A stretch of 64,000 bases of DNA from Streptomyces umbrinus (lineage in GTDB: Bacteria > Actinomycetota > Actinomycetes > Streptomycetales > Streptomycetaceae): positions 1,364,001 through 1,428,000 of the forward strand of contig NZ_JAUSZI010000002.1 of the NCBI RefSeq assembly GCF_030817415.1. The letters run 5' to 3'. Below are positions 11,429 through 51,215 of this stretch, one piece after another; position 1 is the stretch's first letter; each line of letters begins with the position of its first letter. The notes below the pieces were generated by a model. The model searched no databases and was not told where the DNA came from. It saw only the letters and a program-made list of their open reading frames with translations. Made by a program: the position numbers and the translations under genes.

Positions 11429-11429
11429 G

Positions 11430-12692: not shown

Positions 12693-12698
12693 CCAGCC

Positions 12699-13560: not shown

Positions 13561-13597
13561 CGGTTCGAACGGGATGCTCCGGGCCCGGTGCCCGCGC

Positions 13598-16439: not shown

Positions 16440-16510
16440 CAAACTTCCGTACGGAATTCAGCAGTTGAGCCAGAAGCGGTACTGACTTTCGGTCAGCATG
16501 CTCTGGCCGC

Positions 16511-19063: not shown

Positions 19064-19219
19064 CCCGTCCCACCCGGCGTGGGAACGGCCCGGCCGTCGG
19101 CGCCTCCCGCTTCCTCTCCTCGACGCGTGCGACCCCATTCGACCGCATGCGACCACATCTGGGCGCACACGACCGTTGTACGTCCGGCCGTTGGCGCCCC
19201 GGAGCCGGAGGAGGAGTCG

Positions 19220-27594: not shown

Positions 27595-28737
27595 TCAGTC
27601 GCGGCGCGCCAGGAGCCGATAGGCGTTGGACAGACCCAGCCGGTGCGACAGGCGTTTGACCACGAACCGGTCCAGCAGGGTGGCCAGGATCAGGAAGGGC
27701 ACCCCGGCGATCGCCATCGTGGTGCGCAGCGTCCGCTGCCGGCGGTTCGGCGGTTTCGGCAGCCACGGCAGGTCCTCGCGTGGCGCGGCCGCGTCGATGG
27801 CCAGCCACGTACCGGCCAGGAGGTCGACCGGATCATGCGGTTCGGCGTGCTGTTCCGCCACCACCGTGAAGCCGAGGCCGGTCAGTCTGCGCCGCAGGTT
27901 CTCGGCCGGGACGAGGTGCAGGTGCTGAGGCTGGAGCCAAGGCAGCCACCAGCGGCCGAGGAGACGTGCGTAGCGGCTGTCGGGGTCGGGGACCTCGATG
28001 AGCAGATGGCCGCCGGGGCGTATCGCCCGGTGCGCGGCCTCCAGTTCACGGCCGGGCTCCGTGCTGTGCTCCAGGTAGTGGAACATGCTCACCACGTCGT
28101 AGTGGCCGGCGAGTTCCGGGGCCAGCTCGGGAAAGCTGCCGCGGTAGCCCCGCTCCACCCGTCCGGCGCGCTCGGCGAGTTCGGCGCCGTCGGTGAAGTC
28201 GAGCCCGTCGAAGGTCGTGCCGGGGTGGACGGTCCGCGCCGACTCGCAGAAGTGGCCGTGGCCGGTGCCGACGTCCAGCCAGTTCTTGGGCGTCGCGGCG
28301 AACGGCAGCAGGGACTCCGCTCGCTGCCGGTACATCGCGGTCCGGCCCCCGAAGGTGTTGCCGAGCTGCTTCTCCCCCAGGCCGTCGTAGAAGTCGCGGT
28401 AGTAGAACTCCAGCCCCTCGGCGCTCAGTCGGGGGTTCTGGAAGGTGTGCCGGCAGTCCTGGCAGCGGTCGAGGACGAAGTGGCCCGGCTTGTGCTGGAG
28501 CAGGTCGGTGGTGCGCAGCCGCGTCCTCAGCCGCGCCGAGCCGCACCAGGGGCAGTCGGAGCGCCGGGGTTCGAAGAAGCGGTCAAGGCCGCGCGCCAGG
28601 TCGGCCTGGTAGCCGGGGCGCAGCGCGGCGACTTGTTCGGCACGACTCGGCGTCGGCTCGCTGTCCGTGACCTGATCGGTGCGACTCGGCGTCGGCTCGC
28701 CGTCCGCCCCTTGTGGTTCGTGCTCTGCGTCGCTCAT
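27595..28737 (-). CDS. SAM-dependent methyltransferase with N-terminal zinc ribbon (last gene of the synthase operon)
   Basis: A 380-residue protein. ATG 28737 overlaps the glycosyltransferase stop as ATGA. Residues 1-40 carry a duplicated EPTPSR..QV segment. A zinc ribbon follows (CPWCGSARL...CQDCRHTFQNPRLS), then a class I methyltransferase fold: motif I WLDVGTGHGHFC, DGLDFTDG, MFHYLEHSTEPG, GGHLLIEVPDP. The last 60 residues include a hydrophobic stretch (AGVPFLILATLLDRFVV) that may contact the membrane or a lipid. Enzymes with this zinc ribbon plus methyltransferase layout often modify sugars or polyketides. It probably methylates the glycolipid-like product; inference from position. Confidence 0.88.
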   Translation of the reverse strand: MSDAEHEPQGADGEPTPSRTDQVTDSEPTPSRAEQVAALRPGYQADLARGLDRFFEPRRSDCPWCGSARLRTRLRTTDLLQHKPGHFVLDRCQDCRHTFQNPRLSAEGLEFYYRDFYDGLGEKQLGNTFGGRTAMYRQRAESLLPFAATPKNWLDVGTGHGHFCESARTVHPGTTFDGLDFTDGAELAERAGRVERGYRGSFPELAPELAGHYDVVSMFHYLEHSTEPGRELEAAHRAIRPGGHLLIEVPDPDSRYARLLGRWWLPWLQPQHLHLVPAENLRRRLTGLGFTVVAEQHAEPHDPVDLLAGTWLAIDAAAPREDLPWLPKPPNRRQRTLRTTMAIAGVPFLILATLLDRFVVKRLSHRLGLSNAYRLLARRD

Positions 28738-29960
28738 GGGGCCTCCTTGGAGGGCGTGGCGCCGGCCAGTTCTTCGAGGTGAATTGCTGCCGCGCCGGCA
28801 CCACCCGCGGCACGGAACGCGGTACGGATCCGCTCGGCGGCGGTGCGGTGGCCGGGTTCGTGGAGTACGGCGTCGATCGCCGCGCCGAGCTTGGGCGCGG
28901 TGACCCGGCCGAACCTGACCCGGATGCCGGCGCCCGCGTCGACGACCTGCCCGGCCACGACGGGCTGATCGTCACGGATGGGGGCCACCACGAGAGGGAC
29001 GCCGTGCCACAGCGCCTCACACACGGTGTTGTGCCCCGCGTGGCAGACGACCGCGTCGACCCGTTCGAGGAGCGGGAGTTGAGGGACCGAGGACCGGATC
29101 AGTACGTCCTTGTCGTCCAGGTCCGGGGGTACGCCGAGCACGTTCGCGGGATCGACGATCACCGCCTGCACCCGGTCCGCACGGCAGCGCAGGGCGTCGC
29201 GGCACTCGGCGAGGAAGCGGGCCCCGACATCGGTGTTGGCGGTGCCGAGGGTCACGAGCACCGTGGCACGGGCGGGGTCGAGCCAGGTCCAGGGGAAGTC
29301 GGCCGCGGCGGGCCGAGGCGCCATCGAGGGGCCGACCCAGCGGATCCGGTCACCGACCCCGGCCCCCGACCCTGCGCCTGCGCCTGCGCCGACCAACTCC
29401 GGCGTGCTGAACGCGAGCACCAGATGCGGGGAGAACCGTGGATCGGCCGTGCCCGACGGATCACCGATACGGCCGCGCAGATCGTGGAGCAGCCTGTCGA
29501 GCCAGTCCGCGACCTTGGGCATACCCGTCAGCGCGTCGGCGAAGGTGAATTCGGCGGAGGTGGTGGACGAGGTGGCCCACGGCACACGCAGCCGCTCGGC
29601 GACCACCCCTCCGGCGAAGGCCTGTTGATCGGCGACGACGACATCGGGGCCGAACTCCCCGATGGCCGCCCGCACTCCGGGGGCCATCGCCTCGGCCAGC
29701 GGCACCAGGAACCGTTCCCACAGGAACTTCAGCGCCTCCGGACCCCGAAGGTCCGCCGGCCGCACTCCGTCTTCCCCTGTCAGGACCGGTCCCGCGCACG
29801 GGAACACCACTGCCTCGTCCCCCGCGAGCCGCCGGACGAGCCCCGGATCCGCGGAGGCCCAGGCCACCCGGTGTCCCCGCGCGGTCAGTTCCGTCGCCAC
29901 GCCCACCGTCGGGTTGATGTGGCCGACCAGAGGCGGCACGACGAACAGGAACCCGCTCAC
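28734..29960 (-). CDS. GT1 (MGT/UGT-like) glycosyltransferase
   Basis: A 408-residue protein. GTG 29960 overlaps the upstream hydrolase stop as GTGA. The N-terminal acceptor domain starts FLFVVPPLVGHINPTVGVA. The C-terminal donor domain has VLVTLGTANTD, SVPQLPLLERVDAVVCHAGH, NTVCEALWHGVPLVVAPIRD and DQPVVAGQVVDAGAGIRV, the GT-B signature for nucleotide-sugar binding. A Gly/Ala dipeptide run (GAGAGAGSGAGVG) lies between the halves. This class glycosylates macrolides, sterols and polyketides with NDP-sugars. In this operon it should add sugar to the synthase product. Confidence 0.92.
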   Translation of the reverse strand: MSGFLFVVPPLVGHINPTVGVATELTARGHRVAWASADPGLVRRLAGDEAVVFPCAGPVLTGEDGVRPADLRGPEALKFLWERFLVPLAEAMAPGVRAAIGEFGPDVVVADQQAFAGGVVAERLRVPWATSSTTSAEFTFADALTGMPKVADWLDRLLHDLRGRIGDPSGTADPRFSPHLVLAFSTPELVGAGAGAGSGAGVGDRIRWVGPSMAPRPAAADFPWTWLDPARATVLVTLGTANTDVGARFLAECRDALRCRADRVQAVIVDPANVLGVPPDLDDKDVLIRSSVPQLPLLERVDAVVCHAGHNTVCEALWHGVPLVVAPIRDDQPVVAGQVVDAGAGIRVRFGRVTAPKLGAAIDAVLHEPGHRTAAERIRTAFRAAGGAGAAAIHLEELAGATPSKEAP

Positions 29961-30835
29961 CGGCCCTCGACCCTCGCGAACTCGGCCACGCCCCGCTCCG
30001 TCACTCCTCGGTCCGCAACGCCCCGCTCCGCCACGCCCTGCTCGCCCGTCCCCTCGCCGATCATGGAGAGGATGTGGTCGCCGACCGTACCCGGCGCCTC
30101 GACGAGCACGGAGTGCTCGTGCCCCGGCACCACTACGGTCCGGCAGTCGGGCAACAGGGACTCCAGCCACGGTGCCCGCTCGACGAGGGCCGACTCGCCA
30201 CCGTAGAGGGCGAGAACCGGGCAGCGTACGGACCGGATCTGGTCCTCGGTCAGCACCTTGCTGACCGGAATGTCCCGGACGAGGGTGGTCTCGCGGGCCA
30301 GGCGGGCCGCGCCCTTCGCCAGGCGGGCGGTGTTCTGGCTGCGATTGGCGGTGATCCAGGCCAGCGCGGCGGCCTCGTTGTGCGCCAGCTCGGTCAGCAC
30401 CTGCTGCAGCACCCCGTCCATGGTCGCCGCCCAACCCGCGGTCGCCGGCTCCGACTCGATCAGGGAGACGCCGGCCGCCCGCTCCGGATGGCGGGCGGCG
30501 TAGCCGAAGGCGACGGACCCGCCGAAGGAGTTGCCGACCAGTTGGACCGGTCCAGTCACCTCCAGCCGGTCGAGCAGTGCCTCCAGGTCGTCGAGATGGT
30601 CGTCGAGGCGGTAGCCGCTCTCCGGGCGCTCGCTGCGGCCGTGGCCGCGCAGGTCGTACATGATCACGTCGATGCCGGACACCGCGAACACCGGTGCCAG
30701 GGTGAAGTAGTAGCTGGCCAGGCTGTCGGTGAGCAGACCGTGGACGAGCACCGCGGTCGCGGTGACGGGACGTCCTCCCTTGGGGGACATCCGCTGGACA
30801 TGCAGCCGGACGTCGCCGGTGTCGACCATAGCCAT
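29957..30835 (-). CDS. Alpha/beta hydrolase, probable chain-release or editing esterase
   Basis: A 292-residue protein starting at ATG 30835, three bases after the ACP stop. Motifs: AVLVHGLLTDSLASYYF, MYDLRGHGRSERPESGYRLD, nucleophile elbow GNSFGG, acid region ALYGGESAL, and His in VPGHEHSVLVEAPG. There is no signal peptide. The C-terminal tail has a 5-residue tandem repeat (GVAER, GVADR, GVTER, GVAEF; 29978-30037). In this setting it may act as a thioesterase that frees the chain from the ACP, since neither synthase has a TE domain. That role is inferred. Confidence 0.87.
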   Translation of the reverse strand: MAMVDTGDVRLHVQRMSPKGGRPVTATAVLVHGLLTDSLASYYFTLAPVFAVSGIDVIMYDLRGHGRSERPESGYRLDDHLDDLEALLDRLEVTGPVQLVGNSFGGSVAFGYAARHPERAAGVSLIESEPATAGWAATMDGVLQQVLTELAHNEAAALAWITANRSQNTARLAKGAARLARETTLVRDIPVSKVLTEDQIRSVRCPVLALYGGESALVERAPWLESLLPDCRTVVVPGHEHSVLVEAPGTVGDHILSMIGEGTGEQGVAERGVADRGVTERGVAEFARVEGR

Positions 30836-30838
30836 GGC

Positions 30839-31177
30839 TCAGACCGCCTCCGCCGCTTCGAGGCTCCGCACTACGTGCTCGACGAGCCTGCCGACGGTGA
30901 GTTCGATGATCTCGTCGAACTCCATACCGGCCAGGAACTCGGCGAAGTTGACCCGTTCCCCGTACCGCTCCTCCAGGAGGCCCGCCAGGGTCACGAGGTC
31001 GATGCTCTCCAGTTCCAGATCGCGGTTGAACGTGGTCTCCATGCGGACCTCGACGTCGTCGAGGCCGTACTCGTCGAGGAGGATCGCGAGCATGCCGGTG
31101 AGATCGGCGAGGACCGATTCCTCGTCCGCGCGCACGGGGTCGTCGTCGGCCGCGCCGGTCGACTGACTCGGGTTCAT
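30839..31177 (-). CDS. Free-standing acyl carrier protein
   Basis: A 112-residue acidic protein. ATG 31177 overlaps the stop of the large synthase as ATGA and is served by AGAGGAGAG. The helix II motif is LELESIDLVTLAGLLEERYG; the Ser in LES is the phosphopantetheine site. The adjacent residue is Glu where most ACPs have Asp (DS). Besides the ACP inside the 2417-residue synthase this is the second carrier of the operon. It may carry a starter unit or the finished chain. Confidence 0.93.
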   Translation of the reverse strand: MNPSQSTGAADDDPVRADEESVLADLTGMLAILLDEYGLDDVEVRMETTFNRDLELESIDLVTLAGLLEERYGERVNFAEFLAGMEFDEIIELTVGRLVEHVVRSLEAAEAV

Positions 31178-34100
31178 CGATCGCTCTCCTCTTGGTACGT
31201 CGGCTCTTGGTACGTCGGTTCTTCGTCCGTGGGTCCGGTCGTCCAGGCCACGACGTAGTCCCTGTCCGGCAGTCCCGGCGGGTTGCCGATCCGCTCGCAG
31301 TGCACGGTGTACGCGCGTTCGAGGCGCCCCGAGACCAACAGCCGGACCCCTGCGTCCCCGGCGTCCTCGGCGTTCCCGGCCGTCGCTTCGAGCACGGTGA
31401 AGTCCCGGGGGCGTCCCCGGAAGCCGGTGCCCTCCGCCTTGGCGACCGCTTCCTTGGCCGCCCAGAACCGGGTGAACCACAGCGCCTCCGATTCGCCGGT
31501 GGCGGCACACCGGGCGCCCAGCAGCCTCAACTCGTCCTCGCCGAGGGCGACGGCGCGGGTCTGCGCGTCCCGCTCGACGACCTCTTCGATGTCGATGCCC
31601 GGCCCCGGCTCGGGCCTGTGCGGCCGTACGATGGCGACCCCGGCCTCCGCGCGATGGGCCAGCGAGACGTCCAGCAAGGGCAGGGTCCGGCCGTGCAGTC
31701 CCGTGACGTACGGGCGGCCCGACTCGTCGTTGCGCACCCGGATCTCGGCCGGGAAGACCGGTCCTTCGCCCTGGTCCCACAGCCACTGCCGTATGGCGTC
31801 CTTGGCCGCGATCCGCCCGAGCAGCCACTGTCTGCGGCCCCGGGGAGCGTGCCGCTCGTACTCCGAACGCTCCGCGCCGCTGAGGGAGTTGCGCATGATC
31901 AGGTCGCGCGAGGCGAGGTCGGGCCAGCGCTCGTGGAGGAGGGACCAGCCGCCGGGCCGCGCCTGGGAGAGCGTGTTGCGTTCGGGGAACCGCTCTACGG
32001 GCCTGGTCTGCGGATCGTTGTCGAACCGGCGGTCCTGCCAGCCCGTGAGCTCCGCCCACACCTCGCCCGCGACGACCAGTTGGACATCGGCTTCGAGCAC
32101 GGTGTCGGTGAGGGAGGTGATCCTCACCAGGCAGTCCACGTCCGTCCCGGGGCGCGGGTGCGGCCCGTGGAACCGCATGTGCCGCATCTGGACGGGGAAC
32201 ACGACGGTCCGTTCCGTACGGGTCGCCATGATCCAGTAGCCGAGGAGCTGGCCCACGTTGTCGAGCAGGGCGCCGGGGGCCGGCGGGGTGGTGATCACTC
32301 CTCGTACGTGCCTGTCGCCGATCGCGGTGAGTTCGGTGACCCCTTGGAACGCTGGTCCGTGGAACATCCAGCGCTCGTAGTAGAGCTGGGCCGCGGTGTG
32401 GTCGGGGGCTCGCTCGGAGGCGGGGTCCGTACGCCACGGGGTCGGGGATGTCACCGGATGGCGGGCCGCGAGCTCGACCACCGCACGGGCGCGGGGGCCG
32501 AAGGAGACCGCGAGCCGGCCGGGGCCGTCGGGGACGGCGGTGACCGGTACGTCGACGGCCGGTGTCGCGGTGAGCCACTGGTCGAACCGGGCCCCGTGCA
32601 CGGCGACCGCCCGCATACCGGGGGCCGCGCGCTCCGCCGCCTCCATGATGTGGTGAACGATCGTGGTCGCGGGGACGACCGGCCAACGGTCCGCCACGTC
32701 GGGCCAACCGGGCCGCTGCGGGAAGAAGCAGTGGTCCAGGAGGTACGGCATCGCTTCCGGGGATACGGGGACGGCGGTGCGCCATTCCTGTCCAGGTGGC
32801 CCGGCAGCGGGTGGCCCGACGGTAGGGGGCGTGGGGGTGGGGGCTGGGGTGGGAGCGGCTGGCCGGGCGGGAGAAAGCCCCGGGGCGGAGGCAGGGGCAT
32901 GGACCGTTGCAGGGCCTGAGTGGCGGCTTCCTGCCGTGATCAGTGCGGCGGCCGTGTCAGCCGTGTCCCGCAACAGCGCGCTCAGTTCGGCGGCGAACGG
33001 CATGCGCGCGGCGAGCGCGTCCAGTGGCGACGGGCCCGCGGCAACCGCCGTGGGGACGGCTTCACCCGGGGCCGTTGTGCCGCGAAGCTCGGCGCGCAGC
33101 TGTGTGAGAGCCGGGCCGTCGAGCGAGATGAGCGCCCCGCCGAGGTCGAGGCGGACGGTCGGCCGGTCCACCCGCGCAGGGTGTGGCGGGTCAACGGCTC
33201 CCGCCGGGCGGGCGGCGGGGCCGGCGGAACGTACGGACGGCGGCAGCGCGGGAGTGACGTTCGCGCCCGCGGTCCACAGTGCCGTCGCCACGCGGCGGAG
33301 CTGGGAAAGGCCGGTGCGGTGGGGCGAGTTGGCCGCCACGACCAGGTGGTCGCGCCCGCTCAGCGTGTCTCCGACGAGTGAGCCGAGCTGCCCGGTGCCG
33401 ACCTGGACGAAGGCGCGATGCCCCGCCGCGTACATGGCCTCGATCAACTGCCGGAAGCGGACCGGCTCCAGAAGGTGTCTGACGAACAGGTCGTGTACGG
33501 CGGCCTCGTCGGCGGGGAACGGCGCCGCGGTCGTCCCCGACCACAGGGGCACGGTCGGCGGATGCAGCCGGAAACGGTTCGCCGCTTCCTCGATGGGCGC
33601 GAGGTAGGGCTTCAGCATCGGTGTGTGGAAGCCGGACCGGAAGGGCAGCACCTGGCTGAGAACACCCCGGGCGCGGAAGGAGCGTACGAACTCCTCCACC
33701 GCGTCGTGCGGTCCGCACACCATCGACTGGTTCGGCGCGTTGTCGTGGGAGAGGACGATTCCGGCGTCCGTCCACCCGTCGTCGAGGGCCTCCAGGACGC
33801 GCCCTGCGGGGGCGCCGAGAGCGGCGAAGGACAGGCCGGGGACGGTCAGCGCGTCGGGGTCGAACGATGCCATGAAGTCGCTCACTTCGTCCCCGGCGTA
33901 CATCCCGGCGGCCACCATCGCCGTCCACTCGCCGACGCTGTGCCCGGCCACCGCGTCCGGGACGACGCCCATGCGGCGCAGCGCGCCGTCGAGCAGCCGG
34001 CCGACACCGACGACACCGAATCCGTGCCGGCCCACGTCCGAGACCCGGGCCTTCTCGGCGTTCGGGGCGGGCCCCGGGACGCCGGGAAGGCCGAAGTGGG

Positions 34101-36069
34101 CGGCGACGTCGTCGACTTGGGGTTCGAAGTCGCCTTCGAGTCCCGGGAAGACGAAAGCCAGCTTGCCGCCCCTGCTCTCGTCCTCGCCGCCGCCGAGCAG
34201 AAGGCTCGGCGTGAACCAGACGTCGCTGCGGCCGTGCCAGGCACGTCCCTTGGCGACCGCCCGGCGGGCCAGGGCGAGCCGCTTGGCGGTGGGGGCGACG
34301 ATGCCGAGCCGGGCCCGGCCCGCGTCCGGATGCGTCCGGCCGGTGCCGGTGTCGAGACCGGCCGCGAGCAGGGCCGAGTCGTCGGCCTCCAGCAGAGCGG
34401 CGAGGCCTTCGGGGCTGTCGGCGGCGAGGAGGAGCACCTGCTCCGGCTCGGCGACGGAAGCGGTAGCTGTGGCAAGAGCTGCGGCTGCGGCGGTCCGGGA
34501 GGAGGACGGACGCGGGGGCAGGCTCTGGAGTGCGGACGAGGCCGGGGAAGTGATCGTCCTGTGCCGGTTGGCCCGCACACCAGGCGTTCCGGTGGCCCGT
34601 GCGGCAGGCGCCTGTTCAAGCACGACGTGGGCGTTGATCCCGCCGAAGCCGAACGCGTTGACGGCCGCCCGGCGCACCGGCCGCTCGGGGCTGGTCTCCC
34701 AGGGCGTCGCCGTCTCCAGCGGACGGAAACGGGTGGCCGCGAGGGCGGGGTGCGGGTCGTCGCAGTGGAGCGTCGGCAGGAGCATCCCGTGGTGGACGGC
34801 GAGGGCTGCCTTCACCAGGCCGGCCACTCCGGCGGCGGGCATGGTGTGGCCGATCATCGACTTCACCGAACCGATCACCGCGGGGTCACCGTCCGTGCCG
34901 GGGCCGAACACCTCGGCCAGGGTGGTGAGTTCGGCCGCGTCGCCCGCCGGGGTCGCGGTGCCGTGGGCCTCCAGGAGGCCGATGGATCCCGGCTGGGCGG
35001 GGTCGAGTCCCGCCGCTTGCCAGGCCTGGCGTACGGCGTGGGCCTGGCCACCGGGGTCGGGGGTGACGAGACCGGCGGCGCGGCCGTCGCTCGCCACGCC
35101 GGTGCCCCTGATGACCGCGTAGATCCGGTCACCGTCGCGTTCGGCGTCAGCCAGCCGCTTGAGCGCGACCACGCCGGTGCCCTCGCCGATCAGGATGCCG
35201 TCGGCGTCGCGGTGGAAGGGGCGGATCCGCTGGCTCGGGGAGAGCGCGCGGAGCTGGGAGAAGACGCTCCAGAGCGTGATGTCGTGGCAGTGGTGCACTC
35301 CTCCGGCGAGCATCAAGTCGCAGCGTCCGGAGGCGAGTTCGCTCACCGCCTGGTCGACGGCGACCAGCGACGACGCGCAGGCGGCGTCCACCGTGTAGGC
35401 GGGGCCGCGCAGGTCGAGGCGGTTGGCGACGCGCGAGGCCGCGAGGTTGGGCACCAGGCCGATGGCCGACTCGGGGCTGTCGGGCCCGAGGCGCTCGGTG
35501 AACGCCGCCCGCACCCGGTCGAGTTGGCCGGCGTCGAGATCGGGCAGCAACTCGCCGAGCGTACGCACGAGTTGACCGGCGGTACGGACGCGTTGGTCGA
35601 GGCGGACCAGACCGGGCGTGAGGTAGCCGCCCCGGCCGAGGACGACGCCGATGCGGTGCCGCTCCGGCAGCCGGTCCTCGCCGCCCGCGTCGGCGAGGGC
35701 GGAGGCGGCCACGTGCAGCGCGATGAGCTGGTCGGGTTCGGTGCCGGGCACCGAGTTCGGCATGATCCCGAACCGGGTGACCTCCACGTCGGCGAGTTCG
35801 TCGACGAAGCCGCCTCGTCGGCAGTACACCTGGTCGGCGACGGCCGGCCCGGTCGCGGAATCGGGCCGGTAGTAGTCGGCGTCCCACCGCCCGTCGGGCA
35901 CGTCGGTGATGGCGTCCGTGCCCGCCAGCAGATTCAGCCAGTACGCGTCGAGGTCGGCGGCGCCGGGCAGCAGTACGGCCATCCCCACGATGGCTACAGG
36001 AGACGGAAGTTGACGTCCCCTCAGATCATCCCGAGCCGCGAGATCGTGCTGATCCGTCAGGTCGGTCAT
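31174..36069 (-). CDS. PUFA/Hgl-type synthase subunit: KS-AT-DH-phosphopantetheinyl transferase
   Basis: 1631 residues. ATG 36069 is one base after the stop of the upstream synthase. KS (about 23-490): Cys231 in DAACASSL, His369 in EAHG, His408 in SMIGHTM, all present. AT (about 635-945): LAFVFPGLEGD, Ser711 in GHSVGEW, GFHTPM. A Pro/Ala-rich linker follows. DH (about 1105-1345): His1113 in LLDHCFFPQ and Asp1270 in GALLDNVGQLLGYW, the double-hotdog catalytic pair. C-terminal PPTase (about 1400-1610): GIDIEEV, then WFTRFWAAKEAVAKAEG, the Sfp/EntD-like magnesium and CoA site. The tail has EPTYQ twice. A fused PPTase should charge both ACPs of the operon, making the system self-activating. Confidence 0.93.
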   Translation of the reverse strand: MTDLTDQHDLAARDDLRGRQLPSPVAIVGMAVLLPGAADLDAYWLNLLAGTDAITDVPDGRWDADYYRPDSATGPAVADQVYCRRGGFVDELADVEVTRFGIMPNSVPGTEPDQLIALHVAASALADAGGEDRLPERHRIGVVLGRGGYLTPGLVRLDQRVRTAGQLVRTLGELLPDLDAGQLDRVRAAFTERLGPDSPESAIGLVPNLAASRVANRLDLRGPAYTVDAACASSLVAVDQAVSELASGRCDLMLAGGVHHCHDITLWSVFSQLRALSPSQRIRPFHRDADGILIGEGTGVVALKRLADAERDGDRIYAVIRGTGVASDGRAAGLVTPDPGGQAHAVRQAWQAAGLDPAQPGSIGLLEAHGTATPAGDAAELTTLAEVFGPGTDGDPAVIGSVKSMIGHTMPAAGVAGLVKAALAVHHGMLLPTLHCDDPHPALAATRFRPLETATPWETSPERPVRRAAVNAFGFGGINAHVVLEQAPAARATGTPGVRANRHRTITSPASSALQSLPPRPSSSRTAAAAALATATASVAEPEQVLLLAADSPEGLAALLEADDSALLAAGLDTGTGRTHPDAGRARLGIVAPTAKRLALARRAVAKGRAWHGRSDVWFTPSLLLGGGEDESRGGKLAFVFPGLEGDFEPQVDDVAAHFGLPGVPGPAPNAEKARVSDVGRHGFGVVGVGRLLDGALRRMGVVPDAVAGHSVGEWTAMVAAGMYAGDEVSDFMASFDPDALTVPGLSFAALGAPAGRVLEALDDGWTDAGIVLSHDNAPNQSMVCGPHDAVEEFVRSFRARGVLSQVLPFRSGFHTPMLKPYLAPIEEAANRFRLHPPTVPLWSGTTAAPFPADEAAVHDLFVRHLLEPVRFRQLIEAMYAAGHRAFVQVGTGQLGSLVGDTLSGRDHLVVAANSPHRTGLSQLRRVATALWTAGANVTPALPPSVRSAGPAARPAGAVDPPHPARVDRPTVRLDLGGALISLDGPALTQLRAELRGTTAPGEAVPTAVAAGPSPLDALAARMPFAAELSALLRDTADTAAALITAGSRHSGPATVHAPASAPGLSPARPAAPTPAPTPTPPTVGPPAAGPPGQEWRTAVPVSPEAMPYLLDHCFFPQRPGWPDVADRWPVVPATTIVHHIMEAAERAAPGMRAVAVHGARFDQWLTATPAVDVPVTAVPDGPGRLAVSFGPRARAVVELAARHPVTSPTPWRTDPASERAPDHTAAQLYYERWMFHGPAFQGVTELTAIGDRHVRGVITTPPAPGALLDNVGQLLGYWIMATRTERTVVFPVQMRHMRFHGPHPRPGTDVDCLVRITSLTDTVLEADVQLVVAGEVWAELTGWQDRRFDNDPQTRPVERFPERNTLSQARPGGWSLLHERWPDLASRDLIMRNSLSGAERSEYERHAPRGRRQWLLGRIAAKDAIRQWLWDQGEGPVFPAEIRVRNDESGRPYVTGLHGRTLPLLDVSLAHRAEAGVAIVRPHRPEPGPGIDIEEVVERDAQTRAVALGEDELRLLGARCAATGESEALWFTRFWAAKEAVAKAEGTGFRGRPRDFTVLEATAGNAEDAGDAGVRLLVSGRLERAYTVHCERIGNPPGLPDRDYVVAWTTGPTDEEPTYQEPTYQEESDR

Positions 36070-36070
36070 G

Positions 36071-39000
36071 TCACCAGCCCGACGACGTGTAGACAACGGC
36101 TCCGGCCGACTCGTCGCCCCAGGCGAGTTCACGCAGCAGCGCCGCGGTGCCCTCCTCGGGGTCGATCAGCTTGATCCCGCGCCTGGCGTACTCGCGTCCG
36201 AGTTCCGGGGTGACCATTCCGGTGTGACCGCCGGTCGGCGCCCACGGTCCCCAGTGCACGGTCAGAGCACGGTGACCGGTGCGGGCGGCCCAGTCGGCGC
36301 CGAGGCTCTGGAGGGCGTCGTTGGCGGCCGCGTAGTCGACCTGGCCGCGGTTGCCGAGGACGGCCGAGATGCTCCCGAACAGGACGGCGAACGCGGGCCC
36401 GTTCGGGAACTCCTCCAGAGCCGTCAGCAAGGTCTCGGCGCCGCTCGTCTTCGTGTCGTACACGCGCTGGAAGGACTCGGCGGTCTTGTCGGCGATCAGC
36501 CGGTCCTCGATCACTCCTGCCGCGTAGACGACACCGTCGAGCCGGCCGTGCTCGGCGTGGATCTCCTTCACCGCCTGGAGCGCGGCGTCCGGCTCCCGGA
36601 AGTCCACGGAGTGGTAGCGGGCGGTGCTGCCGAGGGCCGTGAGCTCCGCCAGGGTGGCGGTGATCTCCCGCTGGGCCAGCACGAGTTCGGCTTCGCGGTT
36701 GATGTCGGCGGGCGTCAGGCCCCCGCCCGCGCGGGTCGCGAGGGCCGTACGCAGCGCGGCGCGGTCCGTGGCGGCCGCGATGGCCGGATCCTCGGGGCCG
36801 GTCGGCGCCGGAGTCCTGCCGAGCAGTTCGACACGGCACCGGGAGGCCGCGGCGAGCGCGGCGGCGAAGGTCGCGGTGATGCCGCGGGCCCCGCCGACCA
36901 ACAACACCACGGAGTCCCGGTCGAGGCCGATGGCGGCGGCCTCGGCGGCTCCGTCACCCGCCGGTCCGGCGCCGGTGGTTCCGAGGGTGCCCAGCGGTGT
37001 CTCCACGAGGTCAAGTCCGTGGCGACCGGCTGCCGTTCGCAGGACGACGGGAGCCGGGTCGGGCGCGAGCAGTTCGGCGACCAGCGCGTCGGCGACGGCG
37101 GCCGGAGTGGTGTCTTCGAGGTCGACGACCCGCGCGACGGTCTCCGGGTACTCGCGTGCGACCGTACGGAACAGACCGTGCAGCCCTTCCGACCGCAAGC
37201 CCGGGGAGCCCCCGTCTGCGGGCCGGGCGGCGAGCAGCCAGCGCGGGCCCTGGCGCAGGGCGGCCTGGAAGACGGGGAAGGCATGGGGCAGCACCGGTGA
37301 CGAGGAATCGGCGAGGGAGCCGAGGTACAGCACCCCGTCCACCCGGCCGTCCGCTTCGGTGAGCAGGTGCTCCGGGCGGAGGATCACGGCGTCGGCTCCG
37401 TGCGCCGCCAGCCGGGAGAACACCTCCCGGGACACGTCCTCGCTCTCGTAGCCGAGCAGGACGAACCGCTTCCCGGCCAGTACGGCGGACGGGTCCGCCG
37501 AGCCGTCACCGTCCTGCTGCTCCAGCAGGACGGGCCGGAGCTGAAACCGCTTCGGCGCCTCGCCTGCGACCTCCACCAACTCTGGCGTCTCGGTCTGCCC
37601 GACCGCTGTGCCGTTCCGTGGCCCTTCTGGCTGCCCGGTCCCAACCGGCGGCGTGCTCGGAGCCGTACCGCCGGACGGTTCGGCGGGCCCCGCCAGACGC
37701 GCGGCGAGCCAGCCCGTCACCGACGCGGCCGTACGGGCCTTCGCCAGGTCCTCCAGTTCCGCGTCGTCCAGCCCGGCGATGTCCACGCCGCCCCCGGCGC
37801 TCAGGCGCTTGGCCAGTTCACCGGCGATCTCGGCCCGTTTGATGGAGTCGATGCTGAGGTCGGCCTCCAGGTCGAGATCGGGCTCGATCATGTCCACGGG
37901 ATAGCCGGTGCGCTCGCTGATGATCTCCAGCACGACGGCCAGGACGTCCGCTTCCGTGACCGCTGCCGTGACCGACGGGGTGGCGCGCGTCTGGGAGGTG
38001 GCGAGCGCTGATGCGGCCTCCTCCGGCCGCAGAACCGGCAGTTGGGCCACGGGAAGCTCCGCGGCCGGTACCGCCTGTTGACGCATGCCGACCGCGGCGG
38101 GTGCGACGGGCGCGGGAATCCATTCCCCCGCCGTGGCGCCGAAGTAGGTCATCAGCACGTCCCGCTGGGCAGCCACCATCTCCCGGCTGGTGCGCAGGTA
38201 TTCGACGATCAGCGCGTCCCTGTCGGCCGGGACGCCGTCTCCGTGGTTCACGTGGCTCGTCGTCACTGTCGTCTCCACAACGCGTCGGGCCGGTGCGAGG
38301 GCACCGGGGAGGAGTTCTCCGGCGGCCGTACGGACCAGCTGGCCGTCGACCGTCCAGCCGGGCCGTTCGGGCTCCGGGGTCCGGGTCGCGTCGACGGCGT
38401 CGCGTCCCTGGAACAGCCATCCGGTGCGTACCGGCAGCCCCGCCACGGCCAGTTGGGCCAGCGCGTCGAGCCAGCCACGCAGTCCGCTGTCGTGACGCGG
38501 CTCGCACGCGACGGTGCGGTGCGGGCGGTCGCCGAGGATCTGCGTGACCAGCCGGGTGAGTACGGAGCCGGGGCCGGCCTCGACGAAGACCCTTGCCCCG
38601 GCCTCGTACATGGCCTCGATCTGTGCGACGAATCCGACGGGGGCGCCGATCTGGGCGGCGAGTTCCGCGCGGATCCCGTCGGCGTCGTCGCCGTACGGGG
38701 CCGCTGTGCGGTTGGACCACACCGGGAACTCGGGCGGACGCACGGTCCGGCGCGCGAGTGCCTCGGCGAACCGTTCTCCGCCGGCGGCCACCACCGGGCT
38801 GTGGAAGGCGCAGGCGACGGGGATGCCTTCGGCGCGGTGTCCCGCCGCGCGCAGCAGTCGCACGGCGGTGGCCATCGCCTCCGTCGGTCCGGAAATCACG
38901 GTCTGCCGGGGCGAGTTGTGGTTGGCGACGACGACCGTGCCGGGGGCGCCCGTCTCGCGCAGGGCCCGTTCGACGTCTTCGGCACCGGCCGCGACCGCCG

Positions 39001-42000
39001 CCATGGTTCCCGGATCCTCGCCGACGGCCGAGAGGATCGCCGCCGCCCGCTCGGCGCTCAGCTCAAGCAGCGCCTCCGGCGTGATCGCGCCCGCCGCGCA
39101 GAGGGCGACCAGTTCGCCGTAGCTGTGCCCGGCGGCCATGTCCGGTCGTACACCGGCCGCGGTGAGCAGTGCGTGGGCGGCGAGTCCGGCGATGCCCAGC
39201 GCGGGCTGGGCGACCCGGGTGTCGGTGATCCCGGCTCGCCGGCGGTCCCGAGCAGCCGTGTCGAAGGCGGCGGGCGGGTACAGCGCGTCGGCGTGGTCGC
39301 GGCCGAGGTGCAGGTAGTGCTGAAGCTCGGGGAAGGCGATGAACACGTCCGCGAGCATCCCGGGCCGCTGGCTGCCCTGGCCCGGGAAGAGAAACGCGAC
39401 CTTGCCGTCGGCCACCGCCGGCCGACGCGGACCGGACGGCACCTGTCCCGCGTCCGCCCGCGCCACGTCCGCCTCCGCCGCGTCCGCCCGCGCCATGTCC
39501 GCCTGCGTAACGTCCACCCGCGCCATGTCCGCCTGCGCCGCGTCCACCCGCGCCATGTCCGCCTGCGTAACGTCCACCCGCACCTGCTCGCTCCCGCCGA
39601 CCAGCGCTCGTCCGGTCTCCGCGAGGTGGATGCCCCCGGCCGGGTCGTCCTCGCCCGCCAGAGCCCGGCGCAGCCGGCCGATCAGCCCGTCGACGTCCGT
39701 GGCTACGACGGCCACCTGGACCGGTTCGTAGCGGGCGTCGGCACGGCGGGACGCGCTCAGCGCGAGGTCGCGCAGGCGCCACGGGCGGCCGTCGGTCCCG
39801 GCGGCCTTCAGTACGTCCTCGATGGCTCGCCGGGCCGCCGCCGGATCCGTACCGCGGAAGGTGAACAGCTCTGCGGGCCAGCTGTCCAGGCCGTGGGCGG
39901 GCGGTTCGGCGGCCGTGTGGGCGCTGAGCACCACATGGAAGTTGGTCCCGCCGAAGCCGAACGCGCTGAGTCCGGCGACGCGCTCCCCGGCCGGGACCGC
40001 CCAGGGCCGTGCCCGTGTGTGGAAGGCGAACGGGCTGCTCTCCTCCCGCCATGCCGGGTTCGGCCGCTTGATGTGCAGAGTGGGCGGCTTCACTCCCGTG
40101 TAGAGGGACAGCACGGTCTTGATCAGGCCCGCGAGACCGGCGGCGCACTTGCTGTGCCCGATCTGCGACTTGACCGAACCGAGCGCGCAGCCACCGGCCT
40201 TGGCCCCGGCCTCGGTGAACACCTCGCTGAGGATGGTCAGTTCGGTACGGTCCCCCACCACGGTCCCTGTGCCATGGGCCTCGACCAGGCCGACGTCGGC
40301 CGGTGAGATGCCCGCGTTGCGGTAGGCCCGTTCCAGCGCGGCGCGCTGCCCCTCGGGGCGGGGTGCCGTGAGTCCGAGCGAGCGGCCGTCGCTGGAACTG
40401 CCGACTCCCTTGATCACGCCGTAGATCCGGTCGCCGTCCCGTTCGGCGTCCGCGAGCCGCTTGAGCACGACACAGGCGATGCCCTCGCCCAGGGCTATCC
40501 CGTCCGCCGAACTGTCGAAGGCGCGCGACCGGCCGGTCGGCGAGAGCGCGTGCACGGAGGAGAAGAGGACGTAGTCGTTGATGCCGTTGTGCAGGTCGGC
40601 GCCGCCGCACAGCACGACGTCACTCGTACCGCCGACGAGTTCCTTGCACGCCACGTCGACGGCGGCGAGGGACGACGCGCACGCCGCGTCGACGGTGTAG
40701 TTGGCGCCGCCCAGGTCCAGCCGGTTGGCGATCCGCCCCGAGATGACGTTGGCCAGCATCCCGGGGAAGGAGTCCTCGGTGAGCCGGGGCAGTTGCCCGT
40801 CCAGACCGCCGGGAACCTCCCCGTAGTAGGAGGGCAGTACGGCACGCAGGGTGGCGGCGTTGGAAAGGTCGCTGCCCGCTTCGGCGCCGAAGACCACGGA
40901 GGTCCGCGACCGGTCGAAGCCCCGGCCGCGCTCCCCGTAACCGGCGTCCTCCAGTGCCCGCCGCGCGGCTTCCAGTGCCAGCAGCTGTACGGGCTCGATG
41001 CTGCCCAGCGAGGTCGGCGGGATGCCGTAACGCAGCGGGTCGAAGGGAATCCGCGGCAGGAAGCCACCCCACTTGGACGGAGTGGCGCCTTTCGCGTCCT
41101 CCGAGTAGTGCACGGCGGGGTCCCAGCGGTCGGCGGGGACCTCACCGACGCCGTCGTGGCCGCCGAGGATGTTCGCCCAGTAGGCGGCGAGGTCGGGGGC
41201 CCCCGGGAACATGCAGGCCATGCCGACCACGGCCACGTCCAGCGGCTCGGGCGCTGCGGGCTCCTCGGCCGTGTCCATCCCGAGGCGTTCCCGGAGGAGA
41301 GCCGTGCGGGCCGCGAGGAATCCCGCCGCGCCGGTGGTGACCGAGCCGTGCAGCGCGCTGATCGTGGTGGTCGCCGAGCGCAGGACGGCCACTTCTCCGG
41401 CCATGAACATGCCCTCGGAGAGCTGGCGTTCCTCGGCCACGGCCGCCAGTTCACCGGTGGCGTCCCGCTCGATGCCCTTGCTGGCGATGCGCAGCCGCCC
41501 GACGTTGAGCCGTTCCAGTTCCTCCCAGATCCGCCGCTCCGGCACGCCGCGCTCGCGCAGCTCCGCCTCGAACTCCCGGTAGTTCTCGCTGAACGGGCTG
41601 GGCACACAGCGGGTGGCATGGCCGGGTGCGGTCTCCAGCAACGCGGTGCGGGTGGCGGCCATGACCTGCCGCTGGAAGAGCGGCCGGACCGCCCCGCACT
41701 CCACCGCTTCGTCGGTGAACAGATAGGCGGTTCCCATGAGGACGCCGACGGCGGCTCCGCGCGCGGTCAGAGGAGCGGCGAGTGCGGCGATCATCGCCGA
41801 CGAGCGCTCGTCATGGACGCCGCCCGCGAAGAACACCTCGACGCGCTCGGCCGTTTGGGCATCCGCGTCGTCCAAGAAGTCTTCCAGTACGGCGAGTTGG
41901 GCCTCCCACAGGGGGAAACTCGCGCGCGGTCCGACGTGGCCGCCGCATTCGGAGCCCTCGAAGACGAATCGGCGGGCTCCGGCGTCGAGGAACTGGCGGA

Positions 42001-43324
42001 GCAGGCCCGGCGAGGGCACGTGCAGGAAGGTGCTGATCCCGGCCCGCTCCAGCGCCTCGGCCTGGGACGGTCGTCCGCCCGCGATGATCGCGTGCGTGGG
42101 CCGCAGCTCCCGTACGGCTTCGAGCTGGGCGTTTCTGGTCTCCTCGGGTGCGAAGCCGAGCACGCCGACGCCCCAGGGCCGGCCGGCCACGACGGCGCGG
42201 GTGTCCTCCAGGACCGTACGCGTCTGCTCGCCGCTCGCGAGAGCCAGCGCGATGAACGGCAGGGCCCCGTCCCCGGCGACGGCGGCGGCGAACCGTGCCT
42301 GGTCGCTGACCCGGGTCATCGGCCCCTGGGCGACAGGCACGCGCGTGCCGAGCGCCCGGCTCATCGGGGACCCGGGACGCAGTGCCCCGGCCGGCCCGTC
42401 GTCGCGTACGGCGTCCCGTACGGAGTCGGTCAGGGCGCGGACCGTCCGGCCCGCGTCGCCCCAGCGCTCGGCGAAGCGGGCGGCGAGGAAGCCGTCCTGA
42501 CCGACCGGCAGGAGCTGGGTAAGAGGGTCCTGGGCACCGAGCATTTCCGACACGAGCGACGGATCGTCGGCCGGGATGCGCGGGACGTCCGGACCCCTGC
42601 GGTGCAGCACCCGGTGCCCGCCCACCACGACTGTCTCCGAACCGTCCATGGACCGCAGTGCCGCGGCAGCCGGCTCCGGAAGCCTCGCCTCGGCGAGCAG
42701 CGCCAACTGGCTGTCCAGGACCACTCCGGCCGCCCCACCGGCCACGGCCGCCGCTGCCGTACGGGGGCCGATGCCGCCGCAGGCCCAGACGGGGAGGTCC
42801 ACGCCGGGCTCGGCGAGCAGGTGCTGGAGCAGGACGAAGGTGCTGAGCTCCCCGGTCCGGCCGCCGCTCTCGCTGCCGCGGGCGATCAGGCCGTGCGCTC
42901 CGGCGCGGACCGCCACCAGAGCCTGCTCCAGGTCCGTGACCTCCACCAGGACTCGGTACGCCGCGGTGACCTCGTCGATCTGCCATGGCGAATCCATGCC
43001 GAGGACGACGGTATGGAGACCACCGCCGTCTCGCTTTCCCGGCTTTCCGTTCTTCTTTCCAGGCGCGAATTCTCCGGGTTCGAGTTTCCCGGGACCGAGT
43101 TCTCCGGGAGCCATCCGGCAGTGCGCTCCGACCCGCACTCCGAACGGTCCCGGCGCCCAGCGACTCAGAGATGCCAGCGCTTCTCTGGCTCTTCGGTCGC
43201 CGACTCCCAGGTCAAGTACCCCGAGGCCGCCCGCACGGCTGACGGCGGCGGCAAGCCTGGCTTCTGGCTCACCGAACGGGGTGATTCCAATGATCATGTC
43301 CTCGGCGCGCACAGCAGACGTCAT
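36071..43324 (-). CDS. PUFA/Hgl-type synthase subunit: tandem NMO-like enoyl reductase-KS-AT-ACP-KR
   Basis: 2417 residues. ATG 43324 follows GGAGA; a longer reading has no ribosome site. Residues about 8-305 and 318-680 both resemble nitronate monooxygenase/PfaD flavoproteins (LAAAVSRAGGLGVLDLG and WACGGIGPRTAAAA; VPVAQGPMTRVSD, FEGSECGGHVGPR). KS (about 694-1140): Cys882 in DAACASSL, His1017, His1057. AT (about 1305-1640): FLFPGQGSQRPGM, Ser1401 in GHSYGEL, AFHSP. One ACP: Ser1827 in LSIDSIKRAE, the PUFA-synthase motif. KR (about 2135-2417): VGGARGIT and VDYAAANDAL. A tandem repeat lies in the KS-AT linker. PUFA synthases normally carry the reductase on a separate gene (PfaD) and several ACPs; here there is fusion and a single ACP. 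Confidence 0.93.
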   Translation of the reverse strand: MTSAVRAEDMIIGITPFGEPEARLAAAVSRAGGLGVLDLGVGDRRAREALASLSRWAPGPFGVRVGAHCRMAPGELGPGKLEPGEFAPGKKNGKPGKRDGGGLHTVVLGMDSPWQIDEVTAAYRVLVEVTDLEQALVAVRAGAHGLIARGSESGGRTGELSTFVLLQHLLAEPGVDLPVWACGGIGPRTAAAAVAGGAAGVVLDSQLALLAEARLPEPAAAALRSMDGSETVVVGGHRVLHRRGPDVPRIPADDPSLVSEMLGAQDPLTQLLPVGQDGFLAARFAERWGDAGRTVRALTDSVRDAVRDDGPAGALRPGSPMSRALGTRVPVAQGPMTRVSDQARFAAAVAGDGALPFIALALASGEQTRTVLEDTRAVVAGRPWGVGVLGFAPEETRNAQLEAVRELRPTHAIIAGGRPSQAEALERAGISTFLHVPSPGLLRQFLDAGARRFVFEGSECGGHVGPRASFPLWEAQLAVLEDFLDDADAQTAERVEVFFAGGVHDERSSAMIAALAAPLTARGAAVGVLMGTAYLFTDEAVECGAVRPLFQRQVMAATRTALLETAPGHATRCVPSPFSENYREFEAELRERGVPERRIWEELERLNVGRLRIASKGIERDATGELAAVAEERQLSEGMFMAGEVAVLRSATTTISALHGSVTTGAAGFLAARTALLRERLGMDTAEEPAAPEPLDVAVVGMACMFPGAPDLAAYWANILGGHDGVGEVPADRWDPAVHYSEDAKGATPSKWGGFLPRIPFDPLRYGIPPTSLGSIEPVQLLALEAARRALEDAGYGERGRGFDRSRTSVVFGAEAGSDLSNAATLRAVLPSYYGEVPGGLDGQLPRLTEDSFPGMLANVISGRIANRLDLGGANYTVDAACASSLAAVDVACKELVGGTSDVVLCGGADLHNGINDYVLFSSVHALSPTGRSRAFDSSADGIALGEGIACVVLKRLADAERDGDRIYGVIKGVGSSSDGRSLGLTAPRPEGQRAALERAYRNAGISPADVGLVEAHGTGTVVGDRTELTILSEVFTEAGAKAGGCALGSVKSQIGHSKCAAGLAGLIKTVLSLYTGVKPPTLHIKRPNPAWREESSPFAFHTRARPWAVPAGERVAGLSAFGFGGTNFHVVLSAHTAAEPPAHGLDSWPAELFTFRGTDPAAARRAIEDVLKAAGTDGRPWRLRDLALSASRRADARYEPVQVAVVATDVDGLIGRLRRALAGEDDPAGGIHLAETGRALVGGSEQVRVDVTQADMARVDAAQADMARVDVTQADMARADAAEADVARADAGQVPSGPRRPAVADGKVAFLFPGQGSQRPGMLADVFIAFPELQHYLHLGRDHADALYPPAAFDTAARDRRRAGITDTRVAQPALGIAGLAAHALLTAAGVRPDMAAGHSYGELVALCAAGAITPEALLELSAERAAAILSAVGEDPGTMAAVAAGAEDVERALRETGAPGTVVVANHNSPRQTVISGPTEAMATAVRLLRAAGHRAEGIPVACAFHSPVVAAGGERFAEALARRTVRPPEFPVWSNRTAAPYGDDADGIRAELAAQIGAPVGFVAQIEAMYEAGARVFVEAGPGSVLTRLVTQILGDRPHRTVACEPRHDSGLRGWLDALAQLAVAGLPVRTGWLFQGRDAVDATRTPEPERPGWTVDGQLVRTAAGELLPGALAPARRVVETTVTTSHVNHGDGVPADRDALIVEYLRTSREMVAAQRDVLMTYFGATAGEWIPAPVAPAAVGMRQQAVPAAELPVAQLPVLRPEEAASALATSQTRATPSVTAAVTEADVLAVVLEIISERTGYPVDMIEPDLDLEADLSIDSIKRAEIAGELAKRLSAGGGVDIAGLDDAELEDLAKARTAASVTGWLAARLAGPAEPSGGTAPSTPPVGTGQPEGPRNGTAVGQTETPELVEVAGEAPKRFQLRPVLLEQQDGDGSADPSAVLAGKRFVLLGYESEDVSREVFSRLAAHGADAVILRPEHLLTEADGRVDGVLYLGSLADSSSPVLPHAFPVFQAALRQGPRWLLAARPADGGSPGLRSEGLHGLFRTVAREYPETVARVVDLEDTTPAAVADALVAELLAPDPAPVVLRTAAGRHGLDLVETPLGTLGTTGAGPAGDGAAEAAAIGLDRDSVVLLVGGARGITATFAAALAAASRCRVELLGRTPAPTGPEDPAIAAATDRAALRTALATRAGGGLTPADINREAELVLAQREITATLAELTALGSTARYHSVDFREPDAALQAVKEIHAEHGRLDGVVYAAGVIEDRLIADKTAESFQRVYDTKTSGAETLLTALEEFPNGPAFAVLFGSISAVLGNRGQVDYAAANDALQSLGADWAARTGHRALTVHWGPWAPTGGHTGMVTPELGREYARRGIKLIDPEEGTAALLRELAWGDESAGAVVYTSSGW
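39443..39577 (-). repeat. 30-base tandem repeat in the KS-AT linker
   Basis: Four and a half units of 30 bases encode VDVTQADMAR, VDAAQADMAR, VDVTQADMAR, ADAAEADVAR and ADAGQ (residues 1250-1294 of the large synthase). The array is in frame and falls outside all catalytic domains, just before the AT. Near-identical units suggest recent slippage. Confidence 0.92.
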
Positions 43325-44225
43325 GATTCTCCGAAAAAATCGGTGAGACTGCACGGTGGGGGGTGCCTGGAGACGACGAATTGGCCCACGCGGACAAACA
43401 CCGTTCACGCGGCGTCGGGGGGAAACTCCCACGCGAAAACCAACCCGTTGGAAGCTAGCGCCAGACTTACCCGCCGGTCAACATCGCGTCGACCTGCCGC
43501 TACGCCGTGGAATCGATTCGGCCAGGCCCCGCCGGGCCTCAAGAACCGAAAACCCGGCCAATTGCAATCAGTCACTACTCTAGTCGGACGACAGCGCCGC
43601 AAGTCCGCCAAAAGCAGCGTCATGATTCACCCCTGCGAAACACGGACGGCAGCGCAAGGCCACTCTGTAAAATTCACATGTCAGCGCCAGAAGTCCCCGT
43701 CAGTCCCACTCTCAAGATCCGCATGCGGCGCGATGTCGAGAAACAAATCCCCACACAACTGACTCCATCACGGGACGTCGCTCCGGCTCATTCACAGGGA
43801 TTTCCCTTTTACCCACCCTCCCTCCCCGAACCGCCGACAGGATTTTACCTCTCCGCAACCGCAAGACGTTTCAGGAATCTCTCCGCCGACACCGGGAGAA
43901 CACACTTCGGATCAATCGGTCGAATCGCTCCCAAGAAACCGTTCACTCCGAGCCGACCACGACAATCCGTGCGCGGCCCCGGACGCACCACGGCCGCTCC
44001 CCCGCCCCGAATGTGATCTACGCCGCAGAGGCAACCCCGCCGCCGACACCGACGTCTTGATCGACAACGAGATGGCGCGGCGGCGCCAGTGACCCGTCGA
44101 CCCAAGGCGCATGACCCAGGGCGGAAAACGGGACACTATACACATCGCGTATACACAGCGTGTATACGCATGCGAACTCAGGTCCGCCGCCGCCCGTCCG
44201 AGCATCGGCAGACCGAAAGGCACGC
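43325..44225. other. 900-base divergent intergenic control region
   Basis: No convincing gene is present. The stretch is clearly richer in A and T than its flanks (e.g. GGATTTCCCTTTTACCC near 43800) and all its reading frames lack the third-position GC bias of neighbouring genes. It separates the minus-strand synthase operon from the plus-strand TPR/prenyltransferase pair and must hold both promoters. The only strong signal I see is the GTATAC palindrome at its right end. Confidence 0.75.
44148..44168. promoter_or_regulatory. 21-base perfect palindrome before the TPR gene
   Basis: CGTATACAC (44148-44156), AGC, GTGTATACG (44160-44168). A further TATACACA copy lies just upstream (44138-44145), giving three TATAC units. 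It starts 78 bases before the ATG, where a repressor or activator dimer could cover the promoter. No regulator gene is adjacent. Confidence 0.75.
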
Positions 44226-51076: not shown

Positions 51077-51215
51077 ACGAGAACCACACCCCAGCGGAGC
51101 GTAGGGTGATGGCAGGCCGTGACTGGCGCTGAGGTGGAGTACCACCGGGGAGCGGCCCGACGCACACGTCTTCGCCGCGCGCCTGGGCATCTTCTACGAC
51201 GCTCAGGAGCGGCTC

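Follow-up and report, generated by a model that had tools for sequence, protein, structure and literature searches.

The window analysed here, a high-GC stretch of 64,000 nucleotides that occupies positions 1364001-1428000 of one contig in the 12.4-Mb assembly of Streptomyces umbrinus, carries on its minus strand six tightly packed genes (A to F, positions 27595-43324) that build a single unit, as judged by analysis of open reading frames (ORFs) and junctions. The operon is a variant of a widespread kind of secondary-lipid synthase, and the domains of its products make it fairly probable that it encodes a compact iterative secondary-lipid pathway of polyunsaturated fatty acid (PUFA) synthase type ending in a sugar head group. 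Our best inference for the product would be a long-chain lipid derived from malonyl units, glycosylated and in some cases methylated.

A first-pass annotation of the window had described six minus-strand genes without real gaps, and the junctions bear this out: A and B are separated by 1 nt and C and D by 3 nt, and start and stop codons overlap at the other three (B/C ATGA, D/E GTGA, E/F ATGA). All six frames are unbroken. Its inventory of two ketosynthases (KS), two acyltransferases (AT), two acyl carrier proteins (ACP), a ketoreductase (KR), a dehydratase (DH) and a phosphopantetheinyl transferase (PPTase) was likewise recovered, by Pfam and, for the DH that Pfam did not detect, by fold. The Pfam matches are NMO (two stretches), KS, AT, ACP and KR on A; KS, AT and ACPS/PPTase on B; ACP on C; alpha/beta hydrolase on D; a UGT/EryCIII-like glycosyltransferase (GT) on E, and Methyltransf_23 on F. 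No nonribosomal peptide synthetase (NRPS) domain was detected by Pfam in the operon. The genes and domains, with ER standing for enoyl reductase, are as follows.

Gene A, 36071-43324, minus strand: synthase of 2417 amino acids (aa), pseudo-ER - ER - KS1 - AT1 - ACP - KR
ER1 (gene A), 42515-43324, minus strand: TIM-barrel-like domain, catalytic His replaced by Arg in the window, GGIG loop kept
ER2 (gene A), 41345-42397, minus strand: FabK/PfaD-like enoyl reductase, QGPM and ECGGH motifs, His463
KS1 (gene A), 39905-41245, minus strand: catalytic Cys-His-His intact
AT1 (gene A), 38465-39457, minus strand: GHSYGE and CAFH motifs
ACP (gene A), 37715-37972, minus strand: single integral ACP, LSIDSIK
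KR (gene A), 36074-37327, minus strand: identified by Pfam
Gene B, 31174-36069, minus strand: synthase of 1631 aa, KS2 - AT2 - DH - PPTase
KS2 (gene B), 34600-36012, minus strand: catalytic Cys-His-His
AT2 (gene B), 33250-34392, minus strand: GHSVGEW, atypical N-terminus, Pfam profile match beginning at position 76
DH (gene B), 32005-32817, minus strand: double-hotdog dehydratase; His in 80/80 and Asp in 79/79 aligned sequences
PPTase (gene B), 31270-31962, minus strand: PF01648, weak holo-ACP-synthase matches (best E 0.0013), motifs
Gene C, 30839-31177, minus strand: free-standing ACP of 112 aa (LESID)
Gene D, 29957-30835, minus strand: alpha/beta hydrolase of 292 aa (Pfam)
Gene E, 28734-29960, minus strand: GT1/MGT-type glycosyltransferase of 408 aa, GTG start
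Gene F, 27595-28737, minus strand: S-adenosylmethionine (SAM) methyltransferase (MT) of 380 aa with N-terminal zinc-ribbon-like CxxC pairs

The synthase genes

The operon was compared with the best 80 of 206 related loci, each viewed up to 10 kb on either side of the gene B match and less at contig ends; in the conservation counts, sequences gapped at a column are excluded from that column. Part of the earlier annotation, a flavin enoyl-reductase-like activity, holds for ER2, which is intact, and has been refined by the recognition of its partner: according to sequence and structural model, the enoyl reductase of gene A consists of two FabK/PfaD-like barrels in tandem, a degenerate one followed by an intact one. 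The model of ER1 comprises eight strands alternating with helices (residues 11-203, pLDDT 89.7), and residues 128-207 match FabK in sequence. Barrel motifs were defined as in the portions of PMC13311796 that describe the two-ER heterodimer of thraustochytrids. The motif-I place of ER1 contains no Met (alignment judged by eye) and the His position is occupied by Arg in 64 of 71 aligned sequences. ER2 retains the QGPM motif and, in 73/74 sequences, the motif-III His. Distant relatives have Leu in L099, Trp in L098 and Arg in both L100 and the Methylosinus locus L104 at the His position of ER1, hence absence of the His is general. ER1 is still under selection, with a dN/dS of 0.291 vs 0.134 for ER2 when compared with the Streptomyces phaeochromogenes locus L043, and it would act as a fused scaffold for ER2.

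Both ketosynthases appear competent for condensation. The Cys and both His residues are kept in all 74 aligned KS1 and all 81 aligned KS2 sequences, and the dN/dS values (0.125 for KS1 and 0.108 for KS2, vs L043) denote equal constraint. A role of KS2 as a chain-length factor (CLF) of the PfaC type was rejected, given the Cys-His-His in 81/81 sequences and the AT that follows. The active Ser is conserved in AT1 (75/75) and AT2 (81/81), whose motifs we take to be malonyl-type. The ACP Ser is found in 76/79 sequences for gene A and 79/79 for gene C; among 70 A sequences of at least 2000 aa, the window included, the ACP motif occurs once in 61, twice in eight and not at all in one, and locus L101 gives three ACP matches.

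The KS1 sequence is 53% identical to that of the Methylosinus polyketide synthase (PKS) with a tandem ER and 45-49% identical to the KS of PfaA-like synthases. The values fall to 37% for the KS of an enediyne locus (L103) and 35-38% for eight further KS domains encoded in the genome of the window, in which 42 KS matches were counted. Of the PfaA-like comparators, L102, with six ACP matches, is a clear PfaA; L105, L106 and L107 were so called by domain order read from alignments. Locus L107, on the S. albogriseolus plasmid pSALBX2, is another Pfa-like cluster, with matches to a PfaA-like and a PfaC-like synthase.

Genes A and B probably act as one synthase. Two loci from outside the class, L098 and L099, retain the core and have the AT-DH-PPTase part without KS2, and in L099 A and B are merged in a single frame of 3355 aa. 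KS2 is present in L100, likewise from outside the class; therefore KS2 has been gained or lost. By its predicted fold the DH of gene B is a double hotdog of PKS type. It is the single DH found in the operon, and its best matches are DHs of type I PKSs, in lists from which another DH family may be missing. In the PPTase, VSLAH corresponds to hShxH (P1b') and SGRP to x(G/D)xP (P1a); there is no clear P0 motif (hRxhLS), the nearest string, ERNTLS, not fitting it.

The tailoring genes

Gene D is proposed to be the release or acyl-transfer enzyme; its catalytic His is found in 77/77 aligned sequences. The best solved relative of gene E is 2iya, the oleandomycin glycosyltransferase, and YjiC is also among the nearest solved GTs. 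The sugar donors that we presume for these two enzymes are one basis for proposing UDP-glucose. No sugar-nucleotide genes were found by Pfam among the 20 flanking ORFs, nor in the gene list, itself incomplete, of a plasmid copy of the operon. Gene F contains two CxxC pairs whose four Cys are all kept in 58/58 aligned sequences. The MT gene is not always the last of the operon: at 19206-19901 of locus L093 (G020), upstream of gene A but on the other strand, there is a sequence that matches F at 69% over 232 aa.

Absence of the MT accompanies other genes. Using the GDSL esterase and ABC exporter identified by Pfam in L044, an esterase was found in 13 and a related exporter in 11 of the 18 intact loci devoid of MT; among the 57 MT-bearing loci there was no esterase and one exporter (L003, 44% identity). 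The five loci cut by contig ends (L043, L049, L051, L063 and L071) were excluded from this comparison. Repeated exclusion of the MT by exporter and esterase was rejected, as the tree of B needs only two changes of MT state, essentially one clade plus L035. The change of MT state is thus nearly a single clade switch.

Conservation and distribution of the operon

All six genes stand in order in 55/80 loci, a measure of linkage and not of frequency since gene B served to find the relatives; the search for this order in other genomes, advised in the first-pass annotation, thus finds that the operon is not unique. Genes A to E without F occur in 21/80 loci, 18 of them uncut; the other three, L049, L051 and L071, abut contig ends, and the contig of L071 does not reach gene A, its A match being located in B. 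Two further loci have A, B, C, E and F without D, and two are cut inside B. Where this survey shows A and B far apart, the cause is a split alignment. Among the 80 loci, S. phaeochromogenes L043 has the closest gene A (91%), and against this locus the catalytic domains show dN/dS values of 0.10-0.29, a range that covers gene A in full and gene B as far as AT2, the DH, the PPTase and genes C to F being cut off in L043. Since 55/80 loci keep the order and dN/dS is 0.10-0.29, the operon is conserved beyond chance.

The DH-PPTase part was matched in 14 of 31 genomes, the own one included, and in 8/19 of the same genus. Phylum-wide it was matched at E 1e-30 or better in 7/246 genomes (own included), three of them outside the class. 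Within the genus, a diverged DH-PPTase used as query picked out 41 of 121 genomes by matches of E 1e-40 or better, a count of the marker only; in most genomes of both the phylum-wide and the genus-wide survey, part of the first-look candidates was scored. The earlier statement that related clusters occur in some Streptomyces is therefore correct as to their presence and understated as to their extent: about a third of the sampled genus genomes carry this marker of an orphan family. Nine of the 41 matches are 65-100% identical to the query, and in two loci of that group, L111 and L112, the gene order is unchanged, GT and MT standing about 1 kb further apart. L111 also has a long Gly/Ala/Pro-rich linker from AT1 to ACP.

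A six-gene copy is located on the linear plasmid NZ_CP108492.1 (gene table incomplete), flanked in that table by hypothetical genes and an IS3 transposase; an IS6 transposase is among the genes at greater distance. In Kribbella antiqua (L079) the five-gene form without MT has an MreB-like gene on one side and a nucleoside-diphosphate-kinase-like gene on the other, both identified by eye from the first residues of their proteins. Locus L092 (G012, 7996-14088) has an operon of DH-PPTase, ACP, hydrolase, GT and MT, with an open DH-PPTase frame, adjoining a TatC-like gene (by eye); no synthase-domain match was obtained within its 19.9-kb stretch. The idea of a stand-alone head-group module is weakened by its nearest relatives, G337 and G328, which carry full synthase genes (frames of 1491 and 1567 aa), and L092 is probably a deletion derivative.

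A pathway model and its alternatives

In the model that we propose, the PPTase built into B would activate both carrier proteins, the one within gene A and the free-standing C. A linear chain would be extended by the two ketosynthases together with the two malonyl-type ATs, and reduced by KR, DH and ER2, an FMN enoyl reductase for which the fused degenerate ER1 would serve as scaffold. The domains would allow full reduction, possibly in every cycle; reduction steps are probably skipped at times, leaving hydroxyl groups. The chain would then move to ACP C, and hydrolase D would release or transfer it. Glycosyltransferase E would attach a hexose, most likely from UDP-glucose, a likely donor because no sugar-nucleotide genes are seen beside the operon. 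Finally, F would methylate the product, and one clade would dispense with methylation, mostly with an ABC exporter and a GDSL esterase beside the operon. The first description, an iterative PUFA-like synthase accompanied by genes suited to release, glycosyl transfer and methyl transfer, is supported by the domains.

Several observations weigh against this model: (i) the best NCBIfam match of A, TIGR02813 PfaA, scores 863 bits, below the cut-off of 1010; (ii) the deep nodes of the KS tree have supports of 0.094 and 0.594, the grouping of KS1 with PfaA being weak, so that the link of KS1 to PfaA rests on identity; (iii) the nucleophile of gene D is Ser in 69 and Cys in 8 of 77 sequences, and L040 and L046, seen in full context, have no match to D at E 1e-10, hence D is not always needed; (iv) the GT and hydrolase families are broad, and therefore the glycosylated product could be a non-lipid polyketide; (v) the relatives were chosen with patterns from gene B, close relatives being over-represented, and (vi) the DH-PPTase stretch of three matches (G007, G028 and G313) contains an in-frame stop, so some copies of the operon may be broken.

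A first alternative is that the set resembles a split enediyne-type synthase in which reduction is rarely used, giving a glycosylated polyene or polyhydroxylated polyketide instead of a reduced lipid. The shared KS, AT, ACP, KR, DH and PPTase set with a PKS-type DH speaks for it, and the reduction programme is unreadable from sequence. However, an intact FMN enoyl reductase is present, KS1 is closer to PfaA-like KS than to the L103 enediyne-locus KS (45-49% vs 37%), and none of the companions of L103 (DUF1702, flavin reductase, P450) was found by Pfam among the 20 flanking ORFs. We regard this alternative as unlikely.

A special case of the lipid model would be a macrodiolide glycolipid of the fattiviracin/cycloviracin type, in which D cyclodimerises two glycosylated polyhydroxy acids head to tail and F methylates sugars. 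The AT motifs, if malonyl-type as presumed, predict unbranched chains, and clades with and without MT both exist. PMC4365757, in the parts that concern them, describes such compounds from Streptomyces and Kibdelosporangium as long-chain trihydroxy acids with glucose; in cycloviracins the outer sugars are methoxylated. Against this proposal, no gene cluster for fattiviracin or cycloviracin came up when openly licensed papers were searched for these names, the named producers are absent among the best 80 of 206 relatives, and the compounds carry more than one sugar, the operon having one GT. We find it improbable for the operon. That operons of this kind across actinomycetes constitute the macrodiolide pathway, in which a dead ER would be the scaffold of a live one and a second KS would be truly catalytic, seems likewise improbable; were it true, the synthase would make polyhydroxy acids of C22 or longer, D would join two glycosylated chains, and in one clade export and a GDSL esterase would have taken the place of methylation.

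A lipid of purely structural use in envelope or spore and devoid of any antibiotic role, like heterocyst and cyst lipids, would be in keeping with the spread over differentiating actinomycetes and with Type M synthases in all three finished Frankia genomes, as stated in the relevant part of Shulse and Allen (PMC3098273); the patchy presence in the genus (41/121) and the plasmid-borne copy make it very improbable. A decayed or silent relic, suggested by the relic-like operon without synthase in L092 and by the three matches with in-frame stops, is very unlikely in the window, where frames are unbroken and dN/dS is 0.10-0.29 in the tested domains (A, and B up to AT2).

One heterologous expression could assign products family-wide, the unit being small and a plasmid copy holding the six genes together. 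Moreover, the fused dead and live ER, and the forms with and without KS2, provide a direct test of how chain reduction and chain length are set.

Genomic surroundings of the operon

Beyond the gene F end, a convergent DinB-like gene ends at 27549. At the other end, gene A and a divergent TPR gene, located at 44160, are 835 bp apart; this stretch of lower GC content is probably the promoter region, as predicted from sequence.

Upstream intergenic region, 43325-44159, no strand assigned: GC 61.3% vs 72.8% in the operon

The TPR gene, which adjoins gene A in L043 too, and an overlapping polyprenyl synthetase form the divergent pair at 44160-46549. The polyprenyl synthetase scores 390 bits against a cut-off of 450 with NF041169, the model of the family-2 encapsulin cargo polyprenyl transferase. 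Farther away, the window contains a ZMP/ZTP riboswitch (51109-51195) directly upstream of a folD-like gene (51216-52064), and a PET-hydrolase-like protein (16511-17389; PF12740, 350 bits).

Relation to known systems

An enediyne PKS is a single KS-AT-ACP-KR-DH-PPTase polypeptide. That of Streptomyces sp. NBC_00209 (L103) presumably shares this set with the operon and lacks the ER; it differs in having one synthase gene and a KS just 37% identical to KS1. Membership of the operon in this group was rejected on the A/B split, the ER, the second KS-AT pair and the KS identity.

The Methylosinus sp. C49 plasmid locus L104 resembles the operon in its tandem ER, in which ER1 lacks the His, in a KS 53% identical and in a DH-PPTase protein. 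It differs in belonging to an alphaproteobacterium, in its KAS III-like gene and in that none of KS2, C, D, E and F finds a match within its 18.7 kb. There, the tandem-ER PKS, the KAS III-like gene and the DH-PPTase protein occupy positions 6153-16458.

With PUFA (Pfa) synthases the operon shares the KS-AT-ACP-KR order in gene A (Pfam), the FabK/PfaD-type FMN enoyl reductase and the PPTase. Type A PUFA synthases carry a tandem array of 4-6 ACPs, and PfaC carries two DH domains (DH2), in the account given in PMC3098273. In contrast to such arrays, gene A has a single ACP; a second catalytic KS replaces the KS-CLF pair of PfaC, and the operon has one PKS-type DH, a fused tandem ER with a degenerate first barrel, and tailoring genes. 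The PUFA domain logic first ascribed to the operon thus stands for the domain order and the type of ER, and fails for the KS-CLF pair, the ACP number and the fused ER tandem, and perhaps for the DH. In thraustochytrid PUFA synthase two FabK-like barrels, ERb and ERc, are also paired, ERb being unstable alone, as described in the sections of PMC13311796 on these proteins; there, both keep the catalytic His and belong to different proteins, whereas the barrels of the operon are fused and the first lacks it.

Another Pfa-like cluster in Streptomyces, the 'eicosapentaenoic acid' cluster SCO0126-0127 of S. coelicolor (Type L), differs by its description in PMC3098273 as a fused KS-CLF-DH2-AT plus a pfaD homologue, and PUFA production by it is reported in the same place as not demonstrated. 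As far as their pertinent parts go, PMC6414726 and PMC5932044 concern this cluster, different from the operon, and the 2026 survey PMC13291983 covers PKS-NRPS-PUFA hybrids. No product for the architecture of the operon was found in the literature (openly licensed PMC papers), which agrees with the first-pass statement that it knew of none characterised for this domain order.

The nearest described group is the secondary-lipid synthase Type M of Shulse and Allen (2011, PMC3098273), reported there from Actinosynnema, Frankia, Renibacterium and S. avermitilis with its product uncharacterised. Type M is likewise actinobacterial, and Actinosynnema appears in both sets (A. mirum in that paper, A. 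pretiosum L072 here). A difference is that the main text of PMC3098273 never uses the word glycosyltransferase. The PPTase of the operon, with hShxH and no clear P0, is as described in that paper for Types M-T, its P1b' motif fitting these types generally and not M alone. Judged from sequence, the operon is probably Type M, the type having been defined by KS phylogeny in that work and suggested here by PPTase motifs.

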